Shown here: in pieces, positions 5,075 through 11,683 of the stretch
Position numbering within the stretch: position 1 is the first letter of the stretch
Layout: every line of letters starts with the position of its first letter
Notes under the pieces: model-generated
Database searches by the model: none
Told to the model about the DNA's origin: nothing
Seen by the model: the letters and a program-made list of their open reading frames with translations, nothing else
Position numbers and translations under genes: made by a program
NCBI GenBank assembly: GCA_025041175.1
Contig: JAKCFJ010000001.1
Coordinates: forward strand, 1,798,001-1,862,000
DNA from: Halobacteriales archaeon YIM A00010
GTDB lineage: Archaea; Halobacteriota; Halobacteria; Halobacteriales; Haloarculaceae
Reading direction: 5' to 3'
Length of the DNA: 64,000 bases

Positions 5075-6103
5075 TTACGGAAGAACCACGCGTTTCACGT
5101 CGCTCACGCCAGCCCGTCGGACCACCGCCCGCACGGGATCGCGCGCGCCTGCGAGATTATCCGAATCGCCATCGAGCACGAGCAGCCGTGCCTCCCGGCC
5201 TTCTTCGATGCAACCGCAGTTCAGCCCCACGGCGTCGGCTCCGGCGATCGTCGCCATAGCCAGCGTCTCACGCGCGCTGACATCAGCAAGCTTACAGACG
5301 AACGCCATCTCTCGGAACATCGACGGGCTGTTCAGCATGACGTTGTCCGTTCCGAGCGCGACGGTGGTGTGATCGAGCAGCTTTCTGATAGGAGGGACGC
5401 CGACGCCGGTCACGAGGTTCGACCGGGGACAGACGGCGACCGGCGTTTTCGTTTCTTCGAGACGTTCGAAGTGGTCGGGCTGGGTGTAAACCATGTGGAC
5501 GAGCAGCTCCGGATCGAGCGCAAACGCGGGATCGATGTCGTCGGGATCGCGCTCGCCGGCGTGGATGGCGAACGGTTTGCCCGCCGCTCTGGTTGCAGCC
5601 CGTTCTGTTTCGAAATCGCTGTCGCGCGCACCGCTGGCCCCGAAGCCGTCGCTTGCCTCCATCGCCTCGATCGTCTCGCGTCCGAACACGACGGATTCGA
5701 GACCGAGATCGTCGTCCGCCAGCGCCTCTTCGAGCGCACGCACGCCCCCAACGCCGCCCTCGCGGAACTCGAGGAACGCGCCGGTGCCGCTTCGTTGCAT
5801 GAACCGCAGCGAGCGGGCCATGGCGCGCACCAGCTCCTCGTCGCTCGCAGCGCGGAGGAGCTGGTGTTTGAGCCCATCGGGCGGCGCGACGAGATCGTCG
5901 AGCGACAGTCCACCACCGGCTTCCTTTGCGATCGAGTCGCCGATGTGGGTGTGGGCGTTGACGAACGCCGGAAGGACGATATCGGTCGAGTCGGTAGCCG
6001 CCTCCTCGATAGCGGTTATTCGCCCGTCTTCGACGACGACCCGACCCTCGGTTGGCTCGAACTCGCGTCCACGGAGGATCGTGCCGGTGAGAGAGGTGCT
6101 CAC
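5075..6103 (-). CDS. Amidohydrolase family protein
   Basis: A 342-residue metal-dependent hydrolase. It has the N-terminal beta-sandwich start (TILRGREFEP), then the HxH metal motif in VNAHTHIGDS (H51, H53), a third histidine in FAIHAGERD, and the late acidic residue in ALGTDNVML. This layout fits the cytosine-deaminase/chlorohydrolase branch of the amidohydrolase superfamily; the substrate is not known. It starts at a GTG that overlaps the stop of the upstream HD-domain gene by 4 bp (GTGA), so the two are translationally coupled and probably act together. Confidence 0.85.
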   Translation of the reverse strand: MSTSLTGTILRGREFEPTEGRVVVEDGRITAIEEAATDSTDIVLPAFVNAHTHIGDSIAKEAGGGLSLDDLVAPPDGLKHQLLRAASDEELVRAMARSLRFMQRSGTGAFLEFREGGVGGVRALEEALADDDLGLESVVFGRETIEAMEASDGFGASGARDSDFETERAATRAAGKPFAIHAGERDPDDIDPAFALDPELLVHMVYTQPDHFERLEETKTPVAVCPRSNLVTGVGVPPIRKLLDHTTVALGTDNVMLNSPSMFREMAFVCKLADVSARETLAMATIAGADAVGLNCGCIEEGREARLLVLDGDSDNLAGARDPVRAVVRRAGVSDVKRVVLP

Positions 6104-7335
6104 GATCGTACCTCCTCGGTGAACTCATCGAGCGTTGCGTGTCGTCCCATCCGAAGGTCGCTGACGAGCGCGTCCAACTCGAGTCCGAGCACCCGTTCTG
6201 TCGCGCGTCCAACGGCGTCGGTCGACGCCTCGGGGGCGTACACGCCAAAGCGCCACTGCTCGCGGTGGGCTGTCATGAGCGCGCGGACGAGCGTGGATTG
6301 TCCCGCGAGCTTCCGGATTTCCCCGTTGACGACGACGCGGCTCGTCGATTCGGGCATTGACGGTTCTCCCGGGACATCGAAAATGACGGCGTCGGCGTCG
6401 ACGCCGACAGCGTCGGCCACCTCCCGCTCCAGTGCTCGTGTTCGTTCGTGATTCATCTCCAACAGCTCATCGGGCACGTCATCGATCTCTGCCCACACAG
6501 CGCGCTTGTAGAGACTGCGGGTGTCGAGCCGGCGAGCGTGGTCCGTGGTCGCTGGGCACGAACGGAGCGCGGCGAGCAGATCGTGGTCGTCCATCCGGCG
6601 CAGCGTCTCGGGATCGGTCGCGTTCGCCGCCAACAGTCGCTCGCTCGCCTGCTGAAGCATCGATCGCCCGATGCGTGCGGTGGGATGGTTGTACACCGCC
6701 CGGTTCATCAGCGCTCGCGCGACCAACAGACTCTCGGCAGTCTGGACGTTGCCAGCAGCGAGCACGAGCCTCCCGTCGACGAATCGCAGCTCCCGGATGA
6801 ACCGCTCGTGGTCGATCGTGCCGTAGGGAACGCCCGTGTGGTGGGCGTCCCGGACGAGATAATCCATCCGATCCACGTCGAGCTCGCCCGAAACGAGCTG
6901 TCCGTACTGTCCGTCGCCGGCGATGAGATCTGCGACCGCGTCCGGCGCGATGTCGTGGTTCTCGAGCACCGCCGCGACCGCCGACGTTTCGAGCAGATCG
7001 TGAACGTCGTCGTGGTACTTTCCCGTGTGGCGGTGGATGAGCGACTCGATGTTGTGGCTGTACGGACCATGTCCCACGTCGTGGAGCAGCGCGGCCGCCC
7101 GGATCCGGTCGGCGTTGGGACCGGCGATCCCGAGCTCCGAGAGGGCCCGGTTGGCGATGTGGTAGACACCGAGGCTGTGCTCGAATCGGGAGTGGTTCGC
7201 TGAGGGGTAGACGAAACTGACCGTGCCGAGCTGGCCGATCCGCCGCAACCGCTGCAGGGGAGGCGTGTCGAGCAGGGCGGCGGCGACGCCCTCGACCTCG
7301 ATGTGGTCGTGAACGCTGTCTTTGATCGTCGTCAT
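6100..7335 (-). CDS. HD superfamily phosphohydrolase
   Basis: A 411-residue dNTPase-like HD protein. Motifs: [13 protein letters not shown] (H53), [12 protein letters not shown] (H85, D86) and [17 protein letters not shown], the arrangement of SAMHD1/dGTPase-type enzymes and of the archaeal/bacterial YdhJ-like group. It probably hydrolyses nucleotides or another phosphoester. The start at 7335 ([13 protein letters not shown]) is preferred over the upstream in-frame ATG because homology begins there. It is divergent from cofD with about 116 bp between starts, and the amidohydrolase follows with a 4-bp overlap. Confidence 0.87.
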
Positions 7336-7451
7336 GGTCCGAAATTTGCGTTCGCACGATAAAAACACGGCTGTGTTTCACCGTGTGGGCGTTGTGGCAA
7401 GCGTTTGCTCGAGCACAAGCACTTATCCCCACACACCTCCCGGTTGGGAGT

Positions 7452-8495
7452 ATGACGACGTTCCTCGCTGGTGGAACGGGCACTCCAAAACTGCTCGCAG
7501 GGAGCGCCACCGTGTTTCCTCCCTCGGAAACGGTCGTTGTGGGAAACACCGGGGACGACATCGAACTCGGCGGCGTGCTCGTCTCGCCGGATCTCGACAC
7601 GGTGCTCTTTCTGGACGGCGGCGTGCTCGACCGGGAGACGTGGTGGGGAATCGACGACGACACGAGCGTCACCCACGACGAACTCCTCCGGATCGCCGAG
7701 CACGCGGGGATCGACCGCCGTCTACGGTACCTTCCGGACGAACGACAGACCACAGGCCGGGAAATCGCTCGGTGGCGACGGTTCTCGGGCGTGGGTGAGT
7801 TCATGCAGATCGGTGACCGCGACCGCGCTGTCCACGTGACCCGGACGAGTCTGTTAGACGAGGGGGCCACGCTGACGGAGGCAACGGGCACGCTGGCCGA
7901 CGCGTTCGGGCTGGAGCGAACCTTGTTGCCGATGAGCGACGATCCAGTGGCGACGATCGTGCATACGCCGGACGGATCGATGCATTTCCAGGAGTTTTGG
8001 GTCGGCAACGACGGGGAGCCACCGGTCGAGACGGTGGAGTTCCGGGGCGCGGCAAACGCGGAGCCGACCGAGCGGGTGCTCGATGCGCTGGCCCAACCGG
8101 TCGTGCTCGGGCCGTCGAATCCCGTGACGAGCATCGGGCCGATGCTCTCGATGGAGCGGTTCGAGCAGGCGCTGTTCGACACCACGGTCGTTGCGGTCTC
8201 CCCGTTCGTTGGCGATCGGGTCTTTTCCGGACCGGCGGCCAAACTCATGCGTGCGGTGGGGTATGCGGCCAGCACTGCCGGTGTGGCCGAAGCGTATCCC
8301 TTCGTGGATGCGTTCGTGCTCGATTCCGACGATCCGACCGATCTCGATCGGCCGGTCGTGCGAACCGACACGACGCTCGACGGCCCCTCCGACGCGGACC
8401 GGGTCGCCCGCGCGGTCAGTGAAGCGCTGGAGTCGAGCGGGTCCGAACGCACGCCGATCGAGGCAGATCCGTCCGAGACGGGAGGCGGTCGGTGA
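7452..8495 (+). CDS. cofD: 2-phospho-L-lactate transferase (coenzyme F420 synthesis)
   Basis: CofD transfers the phospholactate (or related three-carbon) moiety from its GDP-activated donor to the deazaflavin Fo, making F420-0. The 347-residue protein starts with the diagnostic [15 protein letters not shown] loop. It also has [21 protein letters not shown] and a later [12 protein letters not shown] segment typical of the family. The ATG at 7452 is chosen because the upstream in-frame stretch is not conserved-looking and includes a promoter-like region. It is the first gene of a four-gene operon joined by 4-bp overlaps; the other F420 genes are not in the window. Confidence 0.95.
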
Positions 8496-9265
8496 TGGAC
8501 CGATCCGACTCCCTCCTCGGTTTCGCTCCGCGGGTTGCGGTGGCGAGTTTGAGCGGTGCGTCCGACGCTGCGTGGGCACGGCGGGCAAGCAGCTACGCCG
8601 GCTGTGCGTTTCTGGGCGGGATCGCGCTCGACGAACCGACCCGCGAGGCTGCTCGGGCACTCGTCGACCGCGACCGCGAGGAGTTTCTGCCCGCCGATCC
8701 GCTCGCGTTCGTCGAGGCGGAGCTGTCCGAACTCGCTGGGCTGCCGATCACCGCCGGGTTCAACGTTCGGAGTAGCTCTCCTGAACCGATCCGGCAAGCG
8801 GGCGAACTCTGTCGCGATCACGGCGCGATCGTGGAGATCAACGCTCACTGTCGACAGGAGGAGATGTGCACAGCGGGAGCCGGAGAGACGCTGTTGAGCG
8901 ATCCCGACCGGCTCTGTGAGTACGTTCGCGTTGCGAGCGAAACGGGCGCGACGACCAGCGTGAAAGTTCGCGCGGAGGTCCCGGGGGTCGATCTCCCCGA
9001 AACCGCGAGGCGGGTGAACGAGGCCGGTGCGGATGTCGTTCACGTCGATGCGATGGATTCTGAGGCGGTGATCCAGGACATAACAGAGCGAAGCGACGCG
9101 TTCGTCATCGCAAACAACGGTGTCCGCGATCGGGAGACGGCGCGGGAGTACTTCACCCACGGCGCGGACGCGGTGAGCGTCGGCCGACCGAGCGACGATC
9201 CGCGCGTCCTCGCGCGCGTCTACGACGCGACGGTGGAGTGGTTCGGTCGGAGGGTCGACGCGTGA
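8492..9265 (+). CDS. Dihydrouridine-synthase-like TIM-barrel flavoprotein
   Basis: A 257-residue protein related to tRNA-dihydrouridine synthase (NifR3-like) barrels. It has [15 protein letters not shown], then [19 protein letters not shown] (matching the Dus EIN.GC region) and [10 protein letters not shown] (the SVKxR lysine). The C-terminal [16 protein letters not shown] and [10 protein letters not shown] fit the phosphate-binding end of an FMN-binding barrel. It is shorter than canonical Dus and lacks their C-terminal tRNA-binding helical domain, so tRNA may not be the substrate. The GTG at 8492 overlaps the cofD stop by 4 bp (GTGA), and an ATG follows immediately at 8495. It is translationally coupled to cofD. 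Confidence 0.75.
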
Positions 9266-10104
9266 GATCGCCGGCACAGAACGCCCAGCTGGCGCTGTTG
9301 CTCGAAGTGTCCGGAACGCCAAAGCCCGGTAATGTGGACCGACACCGGGAGTACGACGATCTCCGGTTCGAGCATTTCGTGGCCGGGGCCGTCGGGAGCA
9401 CTCCCGGATTGGAGCTCGCACAACAGGGGGCTGCGGTCGGGCGCGCGTTCGAGCGGGGCGTCGCCGGAATGGCCGAACAGACGGCCGGAAACACCCAGTT
9501 CGGGGCGCTGTTGTTGCTCGTTCCGCTCGTCCGGGCCGCGAGTTCGGATCCAGGGGCCGCTCTCACACCGCAGGCGGCACGCGACGTCGTTCGCGCTACC
9601 ACTGTCGAGGACGCCTGTGATTTCTACCGGGCGTTCGAACACGTCGACGTGGGTGTCGACGATCCTCCCTCCGATCTCGAAGCGCTCGATGTGCGCTGGG
9701 GGGCCCGCGTCGAGCCGACGCTGCGAGAGCGGGAGCTCACTCTTTTTGACGTGATGGAACTGAGCGCCGGTGTCGACGGGGTCGCACGGGAGTGGACACA
9801 GGAGTTCTCCCGCTCGTTTGGAGCCGCCGACTGGATCGAAGCGGGCGACGGTCCCGTTTCAGAGCGGGCCGCAGACGCCTTCCTCCGGCTGCTCGCGGAA
9901 GAACCGGATACGTTCGTCGGGAAACGACGCGACCGCGCGACCGCAACCGAGGTGGTCGAGCGCGCACAGGACGCGCTCGATGGGGCGATCGATCCGGAGG
10001 AACTCGCAACGGAGTTCGTTCGCCGGGGGATCAATCCCGGCACGACCGCTGACATCACGGCGGCCGCGCTGTTCATCGCGCTCGAACGGGGGTTGTCGGT
10101 GTGA
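9262..10104 (+). CDS. Triphosphoribosyl-dephospho-CoA synthase (CitG)-like protein
   Basis: A 280-residue all-helical protein of the CitG/MdcB family. The family hallmark KPGNVDRHREYDD lies near residues 23-35, with glycine- and threonine-rich AEQTAGNTQFGALLL and a C-terminal RGINPGTTADITAAALF. CitG makes the citrate lyase prosthetic-group precursor from ATP and dephospho-CoA. Citrate lyase is not expected here, so the archaeal member probably performs a related phosphoribosyl transfer on another acceptor (inference). The GTG at 9262 overlaps the previous stop by 4 bp. Confidence 0.8.
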   Translation: MRSPAQNAQLALLLEVSGTPKPGNVDRHREYDDLRFEHFVAGAVGSTPGLELAQQGAAVGRAFERGVAGMAEQTAGNTQFGALLLLVPLVRAASSDPGAALTPQAARDVVRATTVEDACDFYRAFEHVDVGVDDPPSDLEALDVRWGARVEPTLRERELTLFDVMELSAGVDGVAREWTQEFSRSFGAADWIEAGDGPVSERAADAFLRLLAEEPDTFVGKRRDRATATEVVERAQDALDGAIDPEELATEFVRRGINPGTTADITAAALFIALERGLSV

Positions 10105-10661
10105 CTGGGGAGGGATGGCCGCTCGATCTGTCGGGCGTCACCGAGTCGATCGTCACGACGCTGGGACCGAACGACCGATGGAACGCCGCCGCGCTCGGGC
10201 TGTTCGCTGGCGAGAAGGTCACCGCCCGCACGTGGGGACGCACGCGCACGCGCAGAAATTTCCACGAGCGCGGCGAGGGCTACGTCCAGTTCACCCGCGA
10301 TCCCGTGGACTTCGTCGAGGCCGCCTGTTCGATCCGCGAGGAGGACACCCCGATCCTCGACAGCGCCGACGCGTGGGTTCGCGTCGCCGTCGAATCGATC
10401 GGGACGGGTGAGTCCGGACACTGGGAGGAGTGGGCGCTCTCACCCCTCGACTCGAGCGTCGAGCGGCGCGTGGTCCCCACGACGAATCGAGGCTACTACG
10501 CCGTCATCGAGGCCACGGTCGCCGCCTCGCGTCTCGACGTGTCGGGATACGACACCGACGAGCTCAGGGCGCGGATCGATCGGGCCGAATCCGTGGTCGA
10601 ACGCTGTGGCGGCGAGCGCGAACGAGCCGCGTGGCAGCGGTTCGAAGAGCTGGTGTGGTGA
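10101..10661 (+). CDS. DUF447 family protein (predicted flavin-binding split barrel)
   Basis: A 186-residue DUF447 protein. Characteristic segments are LGPNDRWNAAALGLF near the start, ARTWGRTRTRRNFHERGEGYVQFTRDPVDFVEAA, and the C-terminal helical ARIDRAESVVERCGGERERAAWQRFEEL. The family is predicted to bind FMN in a split-barrel fold, but no reaction is established. The GTG at 10101 overlaps the CitG-like stop by 4 bp, making it the last member of the four-gene cofD operon. Its 3' end abuts CRISPR debris. Confidence 0.82.
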   Translation: MTGEGWPLDLSGVTESIVTTLGPNDRWNAAALGLFAGEKVTARTWGRTRTRRNFHERGEGYVQFTRDPVDFVEAACSIREEDTPILDSADAWVRVAVESIGTGESGHWEEWALSPLDSSVERRVVPTTNRGYYAVIEATVAASRLDVSGYDTDELRARIDRAESVVERCGGERERAAWQRFEELVW

Positions 10662-10724
10662 GTTTTGGTTTCGATTCCGTACTGCGACCTTGACCGTCAC
10701 GGTATCGCCGCCGTTGTTCCAGAT

Positions 10725-10761
10725 GTTTCAATCCCGTGTTGGGTTTCTACGGTGCTGCAAC
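10725..10761 (-). CRISPR. Solitary 37-nt CRISPR repeat, minus orientation
   Basis: Read on the minus strand this 37-mer begins GTTGCAGCACCG, continues TAGAAACCC and ends ACGGGATTGAAAC. It is clearly the same repeat as those at 11206 and 11605. It lies between the DUF447 gene and the cas1 fragment and points the opposite way to the other two copies. No second repeat is seen to its left, so no spacer is bounded. Confidence 0.75.
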
Positions 10762-10822
10762 CCTCCGGAAGACGATCACGGGCGAGCTAGACGAGTATCA
10801 CGCGCTGGCGGTGCGCCGATGA
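10762..10822 (+). pseudogene. 3' remnant of cas1
   Basis: Directly after the repeat, an open frame encodes a short tail (TITGELDEYHALAVRR then TGA at 10820-10822) that resembles a Cas1 C-terminus. Its stop overlaps the cas2 ATG by 4 bp (ATGA), as is usual in cas1-cas2 pairs. Only about 17 residues remain; the rest is absent. Assignment rests mainly on position and overlap, so it is probable rather than certain. The fragment is joined to the repeat, suggesting that deletion occurred by recombination at repeats. Confidence 0.55.
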
Positions 10823-11089
10823 GACTCGTCGTAACCTACGACGTGAGCGACGACGCGAATCGACGGCGAGTGTATCGAACGCTGGAACGGTACGGCGCGT
10901 GGCGGCAGTACAGCGTTTCGAGCTGGACGTGTCGAAGACCGAACGGGTGGAATTGGAGGGCGAGCTCGACTCGCACATCGAGCCAGCTGAGGGCGATCGA
11001 ATCCGACTCTATCGGCTCTGTGTGTCCTGTTGCGATGACGTGACCGACCTCGGGTTGCTCCACCCGAAGAACAGTCGAACGTTCTTTGA
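10819..11089 (+). pseudogene. cas2: cas2 pseudogene with two -1 frameshifts
   Basis: The frame from ATG 10819 encodes the Cas2 start MRLVVTYDVSDDANRRRVY and ERYGAWRQYSV. One T is then missing in the run at 10916-10918, and the protein continues in the next frame as FELDVSKTERVELEG and RIRLYRLCVSCCDDVTDLG. A second missing base near 11052-11056 moves it again to VAPPEEQSNVL and a TGA at 11087-11089. Joining the three frames gives a normal 90-residue Cas2, the metal-dependent dimer that works with Cas1 in spacer acquisition. The conserved N-terminal aspartate (YDV) is intact. With two independent lesions it is unlikely to be functional unless both are sequencing errors. Confidence 0.85.
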
Positions 11090-11205
11090 CGGAAATCTAC
11101 GTGGACCTTTATACCATCCGTGTACAGGGGGGGTCCACGAAGTGGAAGCCGATTCTCACTGGAAGAGAAACGTTTATGAGATCTATAGACCGATATTCAC
11201 CCCCT
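11090..11205 (+). other. Possible CRISPR leader remnant
   Basis: These 116 bases between the cas2 stop and the first plus-strand repeat are less GC-rich toward the repeat and carry no open frame. The position (after cas2, before a repeat in the same orientation) is where a leader would lie. No leader motif was recognised, so this is inferred from location only. Confidence 0.3.
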
Positions 11206-11242
11206 GTCGCAGCACGGGAGAAACCCAATACGGGATTGAAAT
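11206..11242 (+). CRISPR. Solitary 37-nt CRISPR repeat, plus orientation
   Basis: The 37-mer begins GTCGCAGCACGG, has the shared GAGAAACCC core and ends ACGGGATTGAAAT. It differs from the other two copies at several scattered positions and has lost the terminal C. It is followed by AT-rich DNA and an ORF rather than by a second repeat at spacer distance. Confidence 0.78.
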
Positions 11243-11326
11243 CTACCAACCGTACATAGATCTCCCCCATCTATAGATATAATAGTTATAACAATCCAGA
11301 ATCCACTCATTATTGAAATATCAATC

Positions 11327-11638
11327 ATGATTGATGTAGACGGGTGGAACCGGATTGAGGCCGCCGATGATGTCTTCGCCAGCTACGAACAGGAGGAGAC
11401 GCAGACAACGATCAGCATTCGTCGTGGGGAAGATTGGCCGGAGACTGTTGCAATTACAGAGACAGCTAATAACGACGCTGAAACGATCTGCCGAAAAGAG
11501 TTGACCACCGACGCCGTGGAATGGGCGACCGAATACATGCAGTCGATTCAGTGCTCGGGATTGAAACACGGGATTGAAACCAACGCGCCCAGTGCCCGGA
11601 GTCCGTTGCGACAGGAGAGAAACCCACTACGGGATTGA
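11327..11638 (+). CDS. Hypothetical protein whose 3' end runs into CRISPR repeats
   Basis: The ATG at 11327 opens a 103-residue acidic frame. The first 76 residues (MIDVDGWNRIEAADDVF, then QTTISIRRGEDWPETVAI and DAVEWATEYMQSIQ) look like a small haloarchaeal protein, with an N-terminal beta-rich part and a C-terminal helix. The remaining 27 residues are encoded by two half-repeats and the full repeat at 11605, which supplies the stop. The original 3' end was therefore probably lost. AT-rich DNA upstream contains TATA-like sequence. The function is not recognised. Confidence 0.5.
   Translation: MIDVDGWNRIEAADDVFASYEQEETQTTISIRRGEDWPETVAITETANNDAETICRKELTTDAVEWATEYMQSIQCSGLKHGIETNAPSARSPLRQERNPLRD
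11556..11580 (+). CRISPR. Two tandem 12-nt copies of the CRISPR repeat 3' end
   Basis: CGGGATTGAAAC occurs at 11556-11567 and again at 11569-11580, one base apart. This is the 3' third of the 37-nt repeat that is present in full at 11605. Such truncated copies are what recombination or slippage within a dying array would leave. Confidence 0.7.
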
Positions 11639-11641
11639 AAC
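11605..11641 (+). CRISPR. Full 37-nt CRISPR repeat, plus orientation
   Basis: The copy begins GTTGCGACAGGA, has GAGAAACCC and ends CTACGGGATTGAAAC. It lies 24 bases after the second half-repeat, about the length of a shortened spacer, and directly precedes the S17e promoter region. It also provides the stop codon of the preceding hypothetical ORF. Confidence 0.8.
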
Positions 11642-11683
11642 ACGAAACGAATCCTTTTAGCCTCGCCGCCGGGAAGCCACGGC

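Follow-up and report, generated by a model that had tools for sequence, protein, structure and literature searches.

Organization of the gene block

The stretch of DNA analyzed here, referred to as the window, comprises 64,000 nucleotides of contig JAKCFJ010000001.1 of the Halobacteriales archaeon YIM A00010 (positions 1,798,001 to 1,862,000; G000:C1:1798001-1862000), whose genome of 5.97 Mb is assembled in 7 contigs. By profile scans and reading of the DNA, four head-to-tail genes (cofD, a Dus-like gene, a CitG-like gene and a DUF447 gene) were found to span positions 7452 to 10661 of the plus strand. The four genes probably form a single transcription unit composed of two modules, cofD with the Dus-like gene and the CitG-like gene with DUF447. 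It is rather likely that the CitG-like and DUF447 proteins act in the pathway building the aryl-polyol side chain of methanopterin-type pterins, downstream of beta-ribofuranosylaminobenzene 5'-phosphate (beta-RFAP) synthase, the first committed enzyme of these pterins.

The cofD gene (7452-8495, ATG start) encodes the 2-phospho-L-lactate transferase of F420 synthesis (TIGR01819, 365.2 bits, cut-off 257.45; PF01933); its counterpart in Haloferax volcanii is HVO_2479. It is followed by a gene for a Dus-like barrel of flavin mononucleotide (FMN) type with 257 amino acids (8492-9265; PF01207, 37.3 bits, cut-off 20.4), which starts with GTG at 8492 or ATG at 8495. The CitG-like gene (9262-10104, GTG start) matches the full profile of PF01874 with 232.5 bits; its product is predicted to be an ATP-dependent (tri)phosphoribosyl transferase of the methanopterin-type pathway. 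The last gene (10101-10661, GTG start) encodes a DUF447 FMN-type split-barrel protein exceeding the cut-offs of both PF04289 (83 bits) and PF20766 (71.2 bits). Matches and coordinates agree with the placement of the four genes in a preliminary description of the window. Asp and Glu together account for 17-18% and Lys for less than 1% of the residues of the four proteins, and the GC content is 62%.

A 4-bp overlap with a GTG start had been claimed for each junction. The DNA reads GTGA at 8492, 9262 and 10101, and the claim stands for the Dus-like/CitG-like junction (GTGA, 9262-9265) and the CitG-like/DUF447 junction (GTGA, 10101-10104), both on the plus strand. At the cofD/Dus-like junction, however, the sequence GTGATG (8492-8497, plus strand) also contains an in-frame ATG at 8495 (TGATG), which would leave an overlap of one base instead of four. 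Since ATG is present at the corresponding point in 7 of 17 haloarchaeal cofD-Dus junctions, the window included (GTG in one more), the true start of the Dus-like gene may be the ATG at 8495. Within the haloarchaeal loci, a four-base overlap is possible for CitG-DUF447 in 15 of 17, for Dus-CitG in 10 of 15 and for cofD-Dus in 8 of 17. Overlaps of this kind are common in prokaryotic operons; they fit co-transcription and are not remarkable, the gene order being more telling.

Conservation of the gene order

Gene order was compared at 71 DUF447 loci of one archaeal phylum, 17 of them haloarchaeal and 54 from other groups. The loci stem from a subset of the 148 genomes sampled, in which each non-haloarchaeal genus is represented by one genome and a haloarchaeal genus sometimes by several. 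Of 80 regions, seven were excluded (six of RFAP synthase and one, in genome G134, with cofD only), as were, by definition, the three loci of genomes that have lost DUF447, and the window was added. Adjacency was determined from profile-domain coordinates, since the gene-calling table missed or stretched some genes. CitG adjoins DUF447 in 60 of the 71 loci, representing 22 families; the remaining 11 belong mainly to family f10. The trio Dus-CitG-DUF447 is contiguous in 40 loci (16 families). All four genes stand together in 15 loci of six families, two of which (f6 and f20) are not of the haloarchaeal order, and cofD directly adjoins CitG-DUF447 also in family f14 and in genome G018. The survey, which had been suggested as a check, thus revealed conservation far beyond close relatives, and by its distribution over families the neighborhood is old.

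The two modules are most apparent where one of their parts is missing. While cofD was found in all 24 haloarchaeal genomes, the Dus-like gene occurs in 23 and adjoins cofD in 22 of them. Genomes G008, G060 and G119 retain cofD-Dus without CitG and DUF447; G018 is the reverse case, with cofD-CitG-DUF447 but no Dus-like match. The gene order of G119 is cofD-Dus-deoxyhypusine synthase-asd, so that exactly CitG-DUF447 is missing, which in three genomes of the same genus (G028, G089, G143) sits between Dus and deoxyhypusine synthase. Deoxyhypusine synthase and asd were named from members in locus L062 and tracked by similarity clusters.

According to the preliminary description, the CitG-like and DUF447 proteins might be linked to F420. 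As the neighboring cofD suggests, they could modify F420 itself or its lactyl-phosphate side chain, and the direct four-gene block in 15 loci of six families, together with the arrangements in f14 and G018, is in line with this idea. However, three of the 24 haloarchaea, all of which possess cofD, lack CitG and DUF447, the control Sulfolobus acidocaldarius has both without a cofD match, and in 50 of the 54 non-halophile loci the group has no cofD immediately next to it. Moreover, the contexts in planctomycetes consist of pabA, an RFAPS-like gene and PTPS. Within the haloarchaea, only the Dus-like gene stays with cofD. The proposed F420 link of CitG and DUF447 was rejected because of this distribution, and a role in modifying F420 is very unlikely.

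The Dus-like protein, described previously as a barrel without the tRNA-binding domain, was found to be just that: its PF01207 match stops at profile position 226 of 311, and with 257 residues it is devoid of the C-terminal tRNA-binding domain of tRNA-dihydrouridine synthases, with which it shares the barrel and the conserved cysteine motif. Against TIGR00736 it reached 121.8 bits, below the cut-off of 218.7. The motif E-x-[ND]-A-H-C-R-Q is retained in the window protein, and its cysteine, which we take to be the catalytic cysteine of Dus enzymes, is conserved in 43 of 45 homologues. The protein corresponds to the N-terminal part of the methanogenesis-marker-9 protein, which has the same barrel and the same position before CitG-DUF447 but carries in addition a Cys-rich domain (TIGR03277) missing from the haloarchaeal protein. 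In a profile scan, TIGR03277 (methanogenesis marker 9 domain) gave no match in the window protein. Many methanogen loci contain homologues that are about 130 residues longer, and both long homologues scanned (L094 and L090) possess the C-terminal TIGR03277 domain (153.2 and 172.6 bits, cut-off 96.2). In family f21 (L090, L108), the barrel lacks the conserved cysteine motif; the marker-9 domain of L090 is intact. The gene accompanies cofD where the second module has been lost, and the second module in methanogen loci without cofD. Its product may be a flavin enzyme serving both branches, or a tRNA or cofactor enzyme that is merely co-regulated.

Co-distribution with RFAP synthase

The occurrence of DUF447 and RFAP synthase (TIGR00144) was determined in the 148 genomes of the phylum (124 rated good), in 243 genomes of the order (205 rated good) and in 14 controls, and that of CitG in the phylum set and the controls. 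Matches with E <= 0.001 were taken as presence, including RFAP synthase matches under the cut-off (9 of 144 in the phylum, 10 of 234 in the order). In the same 148 genomes, DUF447 was detected in 140, CitG in 141 and RFAP synthase in 144 (135 above the cut-off). The three haloarchaea G008, G060 and G119 (99% complete) lack all three genes alike. Of the 124 good phylum genomes, these three and G037 lack DUF447, the three and G096 lack TIGR00144, and the three together with G082, G093 and G123 lack CitG. Within the order, 8 of the 243 genomes have no DUF447 and 9 no TIGR00144 match, with five in common; if only the 205 good genomes are considered, each is absent from four, with three in common. 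Chance figures for the shared absence are 1e-6 and 1.1e-5 (the latter hypergeometric, for the 205 good genomes of the order), and both ignore relatedness.

Among the controls, DUF447 and TIGR00144 match the same four of the 14 genomes, and CitG occurs in those and in E. coli. One of the four is S. acidocaldarius, which shows CitG, DUF447 and RFAP synthase matches and has neither an mch nor a cofD match. For S. solfataricus, the title of a study (Zhou and White 1992, listed in the references of PMC3261824) names a modified folate containing aminophenyl-tetrahydroxypentane. This compound is the polyol arylamine expected from RFAP. Altogether, CitG and DUF447 largely follow RFAP synthase, with exceptions. 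In the window genome, RFAP synthase is encoded at G000:C1:390745-391683 (159.2 bits, cut-off 113.5). No pterin genes were seen around haloarchaeal RFAP synthase genes on an inspection restricted to conserved frames. The co-loss argues that the RFAP synthase homologue of haloarchaea belongs at least to the same pathway as CitG and DUF447.

Pathway neighbors in other archaea and in bacteria

The genes resemble the methanopterin (H4MPT) gene set, which comprises RFAP synthase, DmrX and a TIGR00284 protein, by their co-occurrence with RFAP synthase, by pathway neighbors in several archaeal families and by the planctomycete arrangement, in which pabA and an RFAPS-like gene flank DUF447. They differ in that the haloarchaeal genes sit with cofD, away from RFAP synthase and DmrX, and in that folate genes are also present. 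At locus L005, the gene for DmrX (dihydromethanopterin reductase, TIGR02700, 410.6 bits) directly follows DUF447, and the DUF447 protein of this genome is close to M. mazei MM1853 (2nr4). In a passage of PMC6193120, DmrX is described as an FMN-containing dihydromethanopterin reductase. Six of the 54 non-halophile loci, representing six families, have a DmrX homologue no more than about 1 kb away from DUF447; most loci are without it. Furthermore, a TIGR00284 cluster resembling dihydropteroate synthase (DHPS) was detected in six archaeal loci (one member scanned, above the cut-off), and F430-synthesis genes adjoin in another family group (12-13 loci, judged from one scanned locus).

For bacteria, a scan was seeded with the DUF447 chain 3b5m, and the best 80 of 323 loci, all but L150 planctomycete by title, were evaluated. 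At L123, pabA, DUF447 and an RFAPS-like gene lie in series with a four-base overlap each. Among the best 80 of 323 loci, 53 have an RFAPS-like match as the immediate same-strand neighbor of DUF447, and 40 likewise have a pabA match; clusters within 9 kb comprise RFAPS-like (56/80), pabA (44/80), PabB-type (17/80) and TIGR00284-type (16/80) genes. Three planctomycete RFAPS-like proteins were scanned and scored 67, 94 and 125 bits (cut-off 113.5), and the planctomycete TIGR00284 match was under the cut-off. CitG is present once in each of 17 selected planctomycete isolate genomes, and in 7 of 9 fetched loci it precedes a pterin gene of the PTPS family (one member scanned). In all nine of these loci (L220-L228), the gene before CitG encodes an alpha/beta hydrolase similar to haloalkane dehalogenases (one member scanned).

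Published data touch on these genes at a few points. A passage of PMC9088363 describes a Burkholderiaceae region listing DUF447 together with furan-cofactor and formylmethanofuran genes. For methylotrophs, orf19 and orf20, considered as possible counterparts of CitG and DUF447, are given without homology in the relevant part of PMC3615186. A relationship of M. extorquens orf5 to CitG was rejected, since the gene is shown in PMC8141765 to encode a glutamate ligase. A literature search yielded no paper joining tetrahydromethanopterin with DUF447 or triphosphoribosyl-dephospho-CoA, nor one joining Haloferax volcanii with triphosphoribosyl-dephospho-CoA synthase, which is no proof of absence as most subscription journals were beyond reach.

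The CitG-like and DUF447 proteins

The CitG-like protein is 44% identical to a methanogen homologue and 24% identical to E. coli CitG. In an alignment of five sequences, the invariant residues shared with E. coli CitG include E15, K21, G23, V25, D33, F39, N77, G81, D216, P259, G260, A263 and D264. CitG of citrate lyase, the triphosphoribosyl-dephospho-CoA synthase, thus has the whole-length PF01874 match and the conserved core residues in common with the window protein. On the other hand, the latter attained only 27.4-29.7 bits against the CitG/MdcB equivalog profiles, far under their cut-offs of 272-282, and it has different genomic partners. The previous view of a CitG-family enzyme used outside citrate lyase is supported.

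It might still be argued that the protein makes a phosphoribosyl-dephospho-CoA prosthetic group for the carrier of another lyase or decarboxylase, as in citrate lyase, given the same Pfam family and the shared core residues. This is contradicted by the low equivalog scores, and no citrate-lyase gene occurs among the neighbors scanned, a genome-wide search for these genes, for carrier proteins or for CitX not having been made. In addition, such a function leaves the co-loss with RFAP synthase and the pairing with DUF447 unexplained, and it has very little probability.

The structure model of the window DUF447 protein (mean pLDDT 84.5) was compared with known structures. The best matches were 2iml (Z 20.5, rmsd 2.5, 176 aligned residues), 2nr4 (Z 20.4, rmsd 2.6, 176 aligned), 3b5m (Z 18.8) and 2ptf (Z 15.1), followed by flavin reductases with Z values of at most 14. 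The first four are DUF447 structures themselves: A. fulgidus 2iml, MM1853 (2nr4), Rhodopirellula baltica 3b5m and MTH_863 (2ptf) share the fold at Z 15-20.5, yet they are only about 25-30% identical to the window protein, and their entries state no function. The titles of three of the four entries, including 2iml and 2nr4, name FMN or riboflavin 5'-phosphate as ligand. As modelled, the window protein has the FMN-type fold of its FMN-bound relatives. Two flavoproteins had been predicted in the block, and the Dus-like barrel and DUF447, whose relatives crystallized with FMN, are consistent with this. In a passage of PMC13140500 (2026), DUF447 proteins are suggested to take part in cannulae; neither the FMN-type fold nor the cofactor neighborhoods lend support to the role proposed there. 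A search of plasmids for DUF447 gave no match.

Proposed role in side-chain synthesis

Gene identity, gene order, the co-loss with RFAP synthase, the archaeal and planctomycete neighbors and the FMN-type fold make the assignment of CitG and DUF447 to the methanopterin-type pathway well supported, while for their reactions we infer the following. The link to a pterin, the other option of the preliminary description, is hence sustained for these two genes by the co-loss and the pathway neighbors. We know of no enzymes assigned to the part of methanopterin synthesis that leads from RFAP to the completed side chain. In methanopterin, alpha-ribofuranosyl 5-phosphate is attached to 1-deoxyribitol and joined by a phosphodiester to 2-hydroxyglutarate. 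RFAP synthase would make the aryl C-riboside. To get from RFAP, a cyclic C-riboside, to the open ribitol of the completed side chain, a reduction is needed, and DUF447 is a fit candidate for the reductase because it is an FMN protein travelling with RFAP synthase. It could help, with FMN, to open the ring of the aryl riboside reductively and thereby yield the 1-deoxyribitol chain.

CitG converts ATP and dephospho-CoA to an alpha-linked triphosphoribosyl product and adenine, whereupon CitX makes a phosphodiester from the triphosphate. By analogy, the CitG-like protein may take the ribose 5-triphosphate of ATP, free adenine and link the sugar to the end of the ribitol through an alpha O-glycosidic bond. 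The triphosphate on this sugar would then provide the activated group from which the phosphodiester (in methanopterin, the one to 2-hydroxyglutarate) is later formed, in the way CitX uses the product of CitG. A single CitG-like step on ribitol might then supply both the alpha-ribosyl and the phosphodiester feature.

Several observations weigh against this role. The losses in the haloarchaea may go back to no more than two separate events, one in genus g4 and one in G119 of g5. In G096, a genome 99% complete, CitG and DUF447 are present but RFAP synthase gave no match. Four drafts (G037, G082, G093, G123; 91-93% complete) lack only DUF447 or only CitG, and the exceptions in the order are G306 without only DUF447 and G227 without only RFAP synthase, drafts of 360 and 170 contigs. 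In the window genome, RFAP synthase is located about 1.4 Mb from the operon. The haloarchaeal RFAP synthases score 111-187 bits, whereas many non-halophiles of the phylum sample exceed 300, some of them also being low. A DmrX homologue was found near DUF447 in none of 21 haloarchaeal loci, and CitG lies within 10 kb of DUF447 in none of the best 80 of 323 planctomycete loci, several of which are on short contigs. Genes for Mch and DHPS-type proteins are present in all 24 haloarchaeal genomes, losers included. Finally, in a passage of the review PMC8305020 the RFAP synthase homologue of haloarchaea (HVO_2628 in Haloferax volcanii) is judged unlikely to catalyze the RFAP reaction.

It is conceivable, then, that the haloarchaeal homologue changed its function and makes, together with CitG and DUF447, a related aryl riboside that is not a pterin. 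Besides the modest score and the judgement in this passage of PMC8305020, the DHPS-type folate genes and the fact that the literature passages at hand name no haloarchaeal methanopterin are compatible with such a change. Yet the same three genes occur in methanogens, in the control S. acidocaldarius and in planctomycetes, and a second stand-alone DHPS, such as another pterin condensation would require, is encoded in the window genome and in relatives, even if its co-loss is partial. A product other than a pterin is accordingly rather unlikely.

The haloarchaeal product

As to the product of the side-chain pathway in haloarchaea, the presence of mch and DHPS-type proteins in all 24 genomes, including those that lost the second module, means that it is not the sole one-carbon (C1) carrier. 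By gene content, folate is likely the main C1 carrier. Since haloarchaea also have folate genes, the data suggest a second pterin beside folate, which by the prevailing view is the only one they use. Mch as its sole partner enzyme was rejected, since even the genomes that lost the second module have mch (24 of 24). Nor was there support for a loss of folate synthesis having caused the co-loss, because Pterin_bind proteins were found in 24 of 24 genomes, with a long FolCP-type match in each. The window genome contains three long FolCP-type DHPS matches (contigs C1, C2 and C4); most of the other 23 haloarchaea have one.

The second stand-alone DHPS of the window genome (TIGR01496, 166.7 bits, cut-off 162.6), also present in relatives, fits in part the need of a second pterin conjugate, although the loss pattern does not fully match. 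The second Pterin_bind protein of G008 is a methyltransferase, G060 has a match comparable in length and score, G134 shows just one match and G119 keeps a homologue of the second stand-alone DHPS with 70% identity. As an additional co-lost gene this DHPS fits only partially.

A more far-reaching proposal, which is put forward tentatively and stands a smaller chance of being right than of being wrong, is that most haloarchaea make an undescribed methanopterin-like pterin from beta-RFAP beside folate. The CitG-like protein would then be the missing ribosyl transferase of methanopterin synthesis, acting on the aryl-ribitol with inversion to the alpha-glycoside and using ATP as donor of the sugar and the activated phosphate, and DUF447 the FMN reductase that opens the ring of the C-riboside.

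Flanking regions

Just downstream of the operon, positions 10408-11650 of the window appear to contain a remnant of a CRISPR locus. The N-terminal portion of a cas2-like frame in this region (PF09827, 34 bits, 33 of 74 positions) does not continue in frame, and degenerate 36-base repeats ending GGGATTGAAA are present in both orientations. Divergently from cofD, an amidohydrolase and an HD hydrolase gene with a four-base overlap are located on the minus strand (5075-7368), and their relatives are clustered in about a dozen fetched loci, some of them non-haloarchaeal. Further upstream, beside a methyltransferase, the minus strand (1963-2781) encodes a barrel of the BtpA/SgcQ family (TIGR00259, 296.7 bits, cut-off 153.4).

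Significance

Gene deletion is easy in haloarchaea, and the natural knock-outs G008, G060 and G119 constitute a ready comparison. By the assignment proposed here, two families of unassigned function, which are present in about 95% of the sampled genomes of the phylum and also in planctomycetes, gain a specific pathway and a testable chemistry. According to a passage of the 2021 review PMC8305020, haloarchaea have no methanopterin-specific enzymes. The present result argues against this statement and predicts a second pterin in these organisms.

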